Of a stretch of 64,000 nt of DNA, positions 8,865 to 64,000 are shown piece by piece (the stretch's first letter is position 1; the number at the start of each line of letters is the position of its first letter). Position numbers and translations under genes: made by a program. Source of the DNA: Camarhynchus parvulus. Lineage: Eukaryota; Chordata; Aves; Passeriformes; Thraupidae. The stretch covers positions 1 to 64,000 of the forward strand of contig NW_022148941.1 of assembly GCF_901933205.1 (NCBI RefSeq). The letters are read 5' to 3'. The notes under the pieces were generated by a model. The model saw nothing but the letters and a program-made list of their open reading frames with translations. It searched no databases and was not told the DNA's origin.

Positions 8865-11420
8865 TCCACCTTCGCTCTTCTTGGGCTCCACCTTGATCTT
8901 CTTGAGGCGCTGGAGCCTCCTTCAAATCCCCCTTAGATCCCTCCAGAATCCCCAAAATCCCTTCAAAAATCACCCAAAATCCCCCAAAATTTCCATAAAT
9001 TTCCATAAATTTTCCCCAAATCCCCCAAATTTCCCCCAAAACCCCACCTTCGCTCTTCTTGGCCTCCACCTTGATCTTCTTGAGGTGCTCCCATCCTCCA
9101 AATCCCCCCCTAGATCCCTCTAAAATTCCCCCAAAATCCCTTCAAAAATCCCCCAAAATTTCCATAAATTTCCATAAATTTTCCCCAAATCCCCCAAATT
9201 CTCCCCAAATTCGCCCACCTTCACTCTTCTTGGCCTCCACCTTGATCTTCTTGAGGCGCTTGAGCCTCCCCTGTCCTCCAAACCTCCCAAATCCTCCAAA
9301 ATCGCCCCCAAATCCCTCCAGTTTTCTCCAGAATTTCCAAAATTTCCATAAATTTCCATAAATTTTCCCAAAATCCCCCAAATTCCCCCCAAAACCCCAC
9401 CTTCGCTCTTCTTGGCCTCCACCTTGATCTTCTTGAGGTGCTCCCATCCTCCAAACCTCCCCCTAGATCCCTCTAAAATTCCCCCAAAATCGCCCAAAAT
9501 CCCTTCAAAAATCCCCCAAAATTTCCATAAATTTCCATAAATTTTCCCAAAACCCCCCAAATTCTCCCCAAAACCCCACCTTCGCTCTTCTTGGGCTCCA
9601 CCTTGATCTTCTTGAGGGGCCTGGCCTTCAAAATCCTTAAACCCCCCAAAATCCCCAAAATCCTTCAAAAACCAAAATCCCCAAAATTTCCATAAATTTC
9701 CATAAATTTTCCCAAAATCCCCCAAATTCTCCCCAAAACCCCACCTTCGCTCTTCTTGGCCTCCACCTTGATCTTCTTGAGGCGCTTGAGCCTCCCCTGT
9801 CCTCCAAACCTCCCAAATCCTCCAAAATCGCCCCCAAATCCCTCCAGTTTTCTCCAGAATTTCCATAAATTTCCATAAATTTTCCCAAAATCCCCCAAAT
9901 TCTCCCCAAATTCGCCCACCTTCGCTCTTCTTGGCCTCCACCTTGATCTTCTTGAGGTGCTCCCATCCTCCAAATCCCCCCCTAGATCCCTCTAAAATTC
10001 CCCCAAAATCCCTTCAAAAAACCCCCAAAATTTCCATAAATTTCCATAAAATTTCCCAAAACCCCCCAAATTCTCCCCCAATTCCCCACCTTCACTCTTC
10101 TTGGCCTCCACCTTGATCTTCTTGAGGCGCGCCGCCTCCCCTGTCCTCCAAACCTCCCAAATCCTCCAAAATCGCCCCAAAATCCCTCCAATTTTCTCCA
10201 GAATTTCCATAAATTTCCATAAATTTCCATAAATTTTCCCAAAATCCCCCAAATTTCCCCCAAAACCCCACCTTCGCTCTTCTTGGCCTCCACCTTGATC
10301 TTCTTGAGGTGCTCCCATCCTCCAAACCTCCCCCTAGATCCCTCTAAAATTCCCCCAAAATCGCCCAAAATCCCTTCAAAAATCCCCAAAAATTCTCCAA
10401 AATTTCCATAAATTTCCATAGATTTTCCCAAAATCCCCCAAATTCTCCCGAATTCGCCCACCTTCGCTCTTCTTGGCCTCCACCTTGATCTTCTTGAGGC
10501 GCTTGAGCCTCCCCTGTCCTCCAAACCTCCCAAATCCTCCAAAATCGCCCCCAAAATCCCTCCAATTTTCTCCAGAATTTCCATAAATTTCCATAAATTT
10601 CCATAAATTTTCCCAAAATCCCCCAAATTCTCCCGAATTACCCCCCACCTTCGCTCTTCTTGGCCTCCACCTTGATCTTCTTGAGGTGCTCCCATCCTCC
10701 AAATCCCCCCCTAGATCCCTCTAAAATTCCCCCAAAATCGCCCAAAATCCCTTCAAAAATCCCCCAAAATTTCCATAAATTTCCATAGATTTTCCCAAAA
10801 GATAATAAATTCTCCCAAAATTACGCCCACCTTAGCTCTTCTTGGCCTCCACCTTGATCTTCTTGAGGCGCAGGCCTCCCCTGTCCTCCAAACCTCCCAA
10901 ATCCTCCAAAATCGCCCCAAATCCCTCCAATTTTCTCCAGAATTTCCATAAATTTCCATAAATTTTCCCAAAAACCCCCAAATTCTCCCCATCCGCCCAC
11001 CTTAGCTCTTCTTGGCCTCCACCTTATCTTCTTGGGTGCTCCCATCCTCCAAACCCCCTAACCTCTAAAATTCCCCAAAATCGCCCAAAATCCTTCAAAA
11101 CCCCAAAATTTCCATAAATTTCCATAGATTTTCCCAACATGCCCAAATTCTCCACGCCCACCTTAAGCTCTTCTTGGCCTCCACCTTGATCTTCTTGGGC
11201 TTGAGCCTCCCCTGTCCTCAAACCTCCCAAATCCTCCAAAACCCCCAAAATCCTCATTTTTCTCCAAATTTCCATAATTTCCATAAATTTCCATAAATTT
11301 TCCCAAATCCCCAAATTTCCCCAAAACCCCCACCTCGCTCTTCTTGGCCTCCACCTTGATCTTCTTGAGGTGCTCCATCCTCCAAATCCCCCTAATCCCT
11401 CCAATCCCCAAAATCCTTCA
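8865..11420 (-). repeat. About 176-bp satellite carrying the MYBPC2 exon 3' end and donor
   Basis: About fifteen units, with copies starting near 8,870, 9,048, 9,219, 9,402, 9,584, 9,745, 9,921, 10,090, 10,271, 10,463, 10,651, 10,831, 11,000, 11,165 and 11,334. The spacing is 161-192 bp. On the minus strand each unit encodes LKKIKVEAKKSE (some copies start LKRLKKIKVE) and then GAAG/GTGGG, i.e. the last ~45 nt of the neighbouring M-domain exon plus its donor. About 130 bp of intron-type sequence (AATTTCCATAAATTTCC) follows. Two subtypes partly alternate. One has GGGGAGGCTCAAGCG before the coding part, the other GGATGGGAGCACCTC. Units nearest the exon are the most eroded. Confidence 0.9.
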
Positions 11421-11498
11421 AAATCCCCAAAATTCTCCAAAATTTCCATAAATTTCCATAAATTTTCCCAAAATGCCCAAATTCTCCCAAAGCCCCAC

Positions 11499-63450: not shown

Positions 63451-64000
63451 GTGAGAGAGATACCGAGCTGCCAGGACCTGCCAGGGGTTCATAGGGAGCT
63501 TATAGGGGCTCGGGAAGGGTGATAGAGAGCACAGGGAGCTGCCAGGACCTGCAGCAGAGCATCAGCTCGGCCATCTCGGCGCTGGACGAGCACCCCGAGC
63601 GCAGGGAGCTGCCTGAGACGCAAGGTGAGAGAGATACCGAGCTGCCAGGACCTGCCAGGGGTTCATAGGGAGCTTACAGGACCCATAGAGAGCATCCAGG
63701 GATTCATAGGGACCTTCCAGGACCTTACAGGGGCTCATAGGGACCTTCCAGGGGCTTGTAGAGACCTTACAGAAGTTCATAGAGAACACCCAGGGGTTCA
63801 CAGAGACCTTCCAGGACCTGCCAGGGGTTCATAGAGAGCATATAGGGGCTCATAGGGGCTCACAGAGAGCACAGGGAGCTGCCAGGACCTGCAGCAGAGC
63901 ATCAGCTCGGCCATCTCGGCACTGGACGAGCCCCCCGAGCGCAGGGAGCTGCCTGAGACACAAGGTGAGGGGGGTATTCACCTGCCAGGACCTGCCAGGA
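63451..64000 (+). repeat. Two tandem echoes of the PRR12 exon-5 3' end
   Basis: Copies at about 63,548-63,630 and 63,884-63,964 repeat the last ~85 nt of exon 5 (QDLQQSISSAISALDE, then RRELPETQ) followed by a GTGAG donor. Between them are GACCTTCCAGG and TTCATAGGG units. Both copies keep the reading frame. Neither has a convincing polypyrimidine tract upstream, so they look like duplicated exon ends and not independent exons. Confidence 0.9.

Follow-up and report, generated by a model that had tools for sequence, protein, structure and literature searches.

The 64-kb window, by which we mean the whole stretch of DNA analysed, contains NOSIP on the minus strand (23.6-45.8 kb), PRR12 on the plus strand from 47 kb, an exon at 11.5 kb (11499..11692, minus strand) that we take to be MYBPC2-like, and predicted exons of a further gene, called gene X here, at 17.4 and 19.5 kb. 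The introns of these genes carry long tandem arrays, some of which include a piece of the neighbouring exon together with its splice site. The window was chosen because it shows this pattern, and it is one noisy sequence.

Genes and exons in the window

Twenty-nine splice junctions were placed from the reading frame and the GT/AG dinucleotides. The by-eye reading of exons skipped about 10 kb (1-1199, 13501-16400, 36601-39799, and 41401-44399), where exons were possibly missed. The exons that adjoin the arrays described below are:

11499..11692, minus strand: MYBPC2-like exon (presumed name), from reading, splice pattern, and frames; sequence noisy; source of a donor-type array
17375..17469, minus strand: gene X exon 2, predicted from frame and splice sites
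24304..24412, minus strand: NOSIP exon 8, from frame and splice sites
28243..28434, minus strand: NOSIP exon 7, from frame and splice sites; exon-attached copy noisy near the donor
35306..35444, minus strand: NOSIP exon 5, from frame and NOSIP matches
51186..51298, plus strand: PRR12 exon 2, from frame and splice sites
55655..55816, plus strand: PRR12 exon 3, from frame and splice sites
62963..63450, plus strand: PRR12 exon 5, from frame and PRR12 matches

Judged by sequence similarity, the NOSIP assignment is secure. A NOSIP entry in the PDB was matched with an E-value of 4e-79 and the Pfam domain zf-NOSIP with 4e-46, and over 216 aa the predicted protein shows 100% identity to an NCBI protein of Camarhynchus parvulus, a Darwin's finch (Passeriformes, Thraupidae), which ranks first among the matches listed (the best 120 of 968). 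The assignment of PRR12 is supported by 17 protein matches (best 1e-33), two of which are named proline-rich protein 12-like. The name of the MYBPC2-like exon is presumptive. Its PDB search returned three matches, all unrelated (E 0.57-0.64), and its Pfam search DUF1179 alone (E 0.19). The donor array that a sequence-only reading of this DNA had placed in MYBPC2 is present, with 15 copies, but the gene name found no backing in these searches. The same reading had called gene X TBC1D17-like. That name is without support: exon 2 of gene X gave no Pfam match, all three of its frames are open, and its status as an exon is predicted only.

Parts of the sequence are of doubtful quality. The block at 1-1,419 aligns to 14,352-15,775 at 84.6% identity, and the block at 5,560-7,688 aligns to 19,736-21,989 at 84.4% identity, in the same order and with many small gaps in both. 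These blocks likely stem from a false duplication, or from a haplotype that entered the assembly unpolished. The sequence between the two duplicate blocks also reads alike, and PRR12 exon 4 (57330-58010) appears noisy to the eye. The exon-attached edges of the MYBPC2-like exon and of NOSIP exon 7 lie in noisy sequence as well. The attached edge of the latter (28243-28320) differs from the copies in the intron, several of which look intact.

Exon-edge copies in the adjoining introns

For each junction, a query of 60 nt of exon and 15 nt of intron was aligned to the junction's own intron. The control was made up of the other introns on both strands and of the own intron reversed, about 87-91 kb per junction. 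Junction-spanning copies in the own intron scored above the control at 10 of the 29 junctions (own scores 24-68, control 0-26.5), and in each of the ten the own score exceeded the control for that same junction. Counting as good those copies in which at least 11 of 14 edge nt are matched, the ten arrays hold 80 good copies, 66 of them with an intact GT or AG. The presence of exon-edge copies in the neighbouring introns is thereby confirmed. The ten arrays, with the best own/control score of each, are:

8830..11370, minus strand: MYBPC2-like donor array; 15 copies of the last ~34 exon nt plus GT, spacing 161-190 nt; score 40.5/14.5
17470..18470, minus strand: acceptor copies of gene X exon 2 (predicted); 2 upstream copies with 33 and 51 exon nt, decoy AG near 18053 and 18419; score 60/26.5
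33120..35305, minus strand: NOSIP exon 5 donor array; 4 intact decoy donors near 34545, 34344, 33485, and 33139, 38-44 exon nt; score 55/18.5
26580..28242, minus strand: NOSIP exon 7 donor array; 7 good copies with 71-80 exon nt, 6 with intact GT; score 68/17.5
24413..26580, minus strand: NOSIP exon 8 acceptor array; 26 good copies with ~20 exon nt, 17 with intact AG; score 35/16.5
50750..51185, plus strand: PRR12 exon 2 acceptor array; 5-6 copies with 15-31 exon nt, 4 with intact AG; score 32.5/17
54000..55654, plus strand: PRR12 exon 3 acceptor array; 7 copies with 14 exon nt each; score 29/16.5
55817..56260, plus strand: PRR12 exon 3 donor array; 7 copies, spacing 58-73 nt; score 42/0
62310..62962, plus strand: PRR12 exon 5 acceptor array; 3-5 copies depending on threshold, up to 19 exon nt; score 24/17.5
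63451..64000, plus strand: PRR12 exon 5 donor array; 2 copies with ~80 exon nt, decoy donors near 63624 and 63964, continuing past the end of the window; score 65/14

The NOSIP exon 5 array holds one degraded copy besides the four intact ones (five good copies), and the NOSIP exon 7 array rises to 12 copies at a lower threshold of the edge alignment. In the intron between NOSIP exons 7 and 8, the 5′ side is taken up by good copies of the donor and the 3′ side by good copies of the acceptor, together spanning nearly the whole intron. The exon part is 28-80 nt long in donor-type copies and 14-43 nt in acceptor-type copies (p 0.03, uncorrected, five arrays against five, depths entered by hand). 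Two further junctions were dropped as likely low-complexity matches: the NOSIP exon 6 donor (10 weak matches, best 17 against a control of 20) and the NOSIP exon 7 acceptor (5 weak matches, best 15 against 0). The remaining 17 of the 29 junctions gave no match to their own intron in the same edge alignment.

These ten junctions are the same ten that the sequence-only reading had listed, its NOSIP exons 4, 6, and 7 being exons 5, 7, and 8 here. Its copy numbers were about right, given the 15, 2, 5, 7, 26, 6, 7, 7, 3, and 2 good copies found (in the order of the list). Its units carrying an exon edge with GT or AG, in several genes and on both strands, are borne out, and the rows of decoy splice sites it foresaw correspond to the 66 intact sites.

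A screen resembling the one published for chicken (length at least 20, at least 42.1 bits, with the shuffled control and the multi-source filter left out) was also run on the 17 introns, of which four were trimmed at arbitrary outer limits and the last is truncated by the end of the window. Six of the 17 score, with 26 proximal matches; no match was found in the distal introns of the same gene. These thresholds are not reached by the acceptor arrays of NOSIP exon 8 and of PRR12 exons 2, 3, and 5.

Array ends, breakpoints, and the origin of the arrays

TRF arrays make up 79% of the window, and their coverage is 0.53-1.00 in 15 of the 17 introns and 0.26 in the stretch upstream of NOSIP exon 2 (trimmed to 220 bp). 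The 83-bp intron between NOSIP exons 2 and 3 (45589-45671), with a coverage of 0.00, is the sole one of the 17 without a TRF array. The nearest array ends inside the exon at 10 of the 29 junctions (14-80 nt deep) and in the intron, 1-162 nt short of the exon, at 17; the two junctions without an array are both those of the 83-bp intron. This comparison mixes methods, since the exon depths of the ten cases were taken by hand from the alignments and the intron gaps from TRF, which by itself puts an array end within the exon at just 3 of the 29 junctions. No pile-up of array ends at the junctions was found: within 60 nt of a junction, 8 ends lie in the exon and 14 in the intron (binomial p 0.29, from small numbers and mixed methods), and a comparison with a uniform distribution gave a KS p of 0.57.

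The number of affected junctions was compared with a simulation of random seeding, in which the starting intron length and the unit lengths are assumed. With TRF periods, the model gives 10.6 (sd 1.9), 9.0 (sd 1.9), 6.9, 4.9, 3.3, and 2.0 affected junctions for introns of 80, 150, 300, 600, 1,200, and 2,500 bp, against the 10 observed. With the longer units listed by hand, it gives 18.4, 16.9, 13.9, 10.7, 7.5, and 4.7 for the same lengths, so that 80-150 bp introns are predicted to have 17-18, above the observed number. Ten or more are rare in the model with TRF periods and 600-bp introns (p 0.005), and for TRF periods and introns from 600 bp upward, ten affected junctions would be surprising. 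Since the simulation reaches the observed number, no directed seeding would be needed if the introns began short. The suggestion that the units are seeded on splice sites is thus not supported, given the TRF coverage, the lack of a pile-up, and a random model that for short introns predicts about as many affected junctions or more.

The breakpoints within the exon were tabulated in seven of the ten arrays, and 52 of the 68 copies in these have the commonest breakpoint of their own array. This holds for 13 of 15 copies in the MYBPC2-like array (34 nt), 7 of 7 at the PRR12 exon 3 acceptor (14 nt), and 22 of 26 at the NOSIP exon 8 acceptor (20 nt). Copies that agree in their breakpoint are better explained by a single founding duplication that was later amplified than by copying from the exon again and again. 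Breakpoints are scattered in the other four, where the commonest is found in 4 of 7 copies (NOSIP exon 7), 3 of 6 (PRR12 exon 2), 2 of 5 (NOSIP exon 5), and 1 of 2 (gene X); the missing dominant breakpoint is partly due to alignment ends and noise.

The NOSIP exon 7 breakpoint lies on an 8-nt direct repeat, GAGTGACC, common to exon and intron. Eighteen intron sites with the same flank match 8 exon nt and then stop, compared with at most 3 for the shuffled exon. The breakpoint of the PRR12 exon 5 donor lies on an 11-nt direct repeat, CCAGGACCTGC, as found by eye; the script found 2 nt. The same script returned runs of 20 nt in NOSIP exon 7 and of 13 nt at the PRR12 exon 3 donor, which we read as missed copies and not as microhomology. 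A general rule of microhomology at the breakpoints was not supported, as it looks clear in two of the ten arrays (one of them by eye) and six have 0-4 nt of common sequence, the NOSIP exon 8 acceptor and the PRR12 exon 3 donor falling in neither group.

Of the 66 intact decoys, 3 would, if used, lengthen the exon by a number of nt divisible by 3 and leave the frame free of stops; these are two donors and one acceptor of PRR12 exon 3. The frames are undependable for the decoys of the MYBPC2-like exon (15), NOSIP exon 7 (6), and gene X (2); in the dependable set of 43, use of 40 would lead to a stop or a frameshift and use of 3 would not. The PRR12 exon 3 donor array is open in frame (55817-55880), and its first decoy donor would add 60 nt. 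With weak copies included, the splice dinucleotide is better kept than the neighbouring part of the intron in three of the ten arrays (the MYBPC2-like array and the donors of PRR12 exons 3 and 5), equally well in two, and less well in five. No consistent trend that would point to selection purging or keeping decoy sites was seen across the ten arrays.

In these arrays an exon edge and its splice site are copied through the adjoining intron, a pattern known as exon stuttering, and we consider it probable that each array arose from one chance tandem duplication across the junction that was then amplified within the intron. The starting introns would have been short, as the 83-bp intron of NOSIP still is today, so that random units of tens to hundreds of bases would often overlap an edge. 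Since the full exon keeps a working site in the copy attached to it, a duplication across the junction would be tolerated, and later growth may have proceeded by slippage or unequal exchange among the copies. The spliceosome would keep to the exon-attached site, use of the decoys leading mostly to unproductive RNA. With donors on the 5′ side and acceptors on the 3′ side, the intron between NOSIP exons 7 and 8 has no acceptor followed by a donor, and thus no cryptic exon would be expected.

A process directed by the splice sites themselves (transcription-coupled breaks, R-loops, spliceosome or G4 structures), which would start duplications preferentially at exon edges, could be invoked for the 10 affected junctions among 29, and for the 6 of 17 introns that score here compared with 190 of 5,572 (3.4%) dot-chromosome introns of chicken (Hron et al., 2026; PMC12954441). 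We think it rather unlikely, however, because array ends do not pile up at the junctions, the nearest array does not reach the exon at 17 of 29, random seeding can yield as many affected junctions as observed, or more, if the introns were short, and the window was picked for the pattern, so that its rate is biased upward. That the rows of decoys are held by selection, for splicing regulation or alternative protein forms, appears highly improbable. The GT or AG is kept in 66 of 80 good copies and the three decoys of PRR12 exon 3 would leave the frame open, but the splice dinucleotides are not consistently better kept than the intron around them, 40 of 43 decoys with dependable frames would give a stop or a frameshift, and the widely varying intron length alleles reported among chickens argue against a fixed function (Hron et al., 2026; PMC12954441).

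Given the quality of the sequence, one may further ask whether some or all of the arrays are artefacts that arose when noisy long reads were assembled. The near-duplicate blocks (84.6 and 84.4% identity, many gaps) point in this direction, as does the exon-attached edge of NOSIP exon 7, which is unlike its own decoys and where the frame parts from that of a database protein with 100% identity over 216 aa elsewhere. Yet substitutions between copies recur in several copies, many copies have intact exon sequence, and some arrays lie in clean-looking stretches (PRR12 exons 3 and 5). The same kind of structure in PHF8 was confirmed in raw nanopore reads, according to Hron et al. (PMC12954441). An artefact is improbable on this evidence.

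Chance duplication followed by amplification is thus the reading we prefer, and the analysis supports a simple cause, namely chance junction-spanning duplications in short introns. A bolder generalization, possible but doubtful, is that exon stuttering is the main way in which dot-chromosome introns of songbirds grow. Ancestral introns, tiny at first, would have been filled by arrays from junction-spanning duplications at about ten times the chicken rate (6/17 vs. 3.4%), and much of the intron would consist of decoy sites, some of which, as at the PRR12 exon 3 donor, could add in-frame protein repeats. The rows of near-identical splice sites offer a natural test of how the spliceosome chooses the exon-attached site. 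The arrays may also help to explain why dot-chromosome genes of birds are difficult to assemble and annotate.

Exon stuttering and related systems

Ordinary intronic minisatellites consist of tandem units of 10-100 nt with variable copy number. To our knowledge, they seldom take in an exon edge, and unlike in such cases, most introns here are largely repeat. Tandem duplication across a splice junction has reportedly been described as a route of intron gain in a review and in a Drosophila study. Both processes duplicate the splice junction, but that one creates new introns, whereas here existing introns grow; no new intron position was seen in the window.

The closest system is the exon stuttering, or sequence stuttering, described for chicken dot chromosomes (Hron et al., 2026, Genome Biol Evol evag038, PMC12954441). 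In that report, it affects 115 genes and 236 introns, of which 190 are on dot chromosomes among 5,572 annotated dot introns (3.4%); the copied part takes in the splice donor or acceptor, and repeat expansions are mentioned in some other birds too. The sequence-only reading had taken the pattern for one not known to be described, but it was published there, splice sites included. The likeness extends to the structure: a stretch at one side of a coding exon, donor or acceptor included, recurs as imperfect tandem copies along the adjoining intron, from a few to tens of times, and the introns are heavily covered by tandem repeats, as is 79% of the window here. The exon parts measure 20-187 nt in chicken (median 36) and 14-80 nt here. 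The rate is higher here (6 of 17 introns) than the 3.4% given for chicken, but in a window picked for the pattern.

By its sequence, the window is a songbird instance of known exon stuttering. It differs from the chicken report in species, since the NOSIP protein is identical over 216 aa to that of Camarhynchus parvulus; its location on a dot chromosome is putative. NOSIP, PRR12, and MYBPC2 do not appear in the main text of that report (PMC12954441), so exon stuttering is extended here to a songbird and to genes unnamed there. New in comparison with the chicken report are the tests of array ends, breakpoints, and decoy frames.
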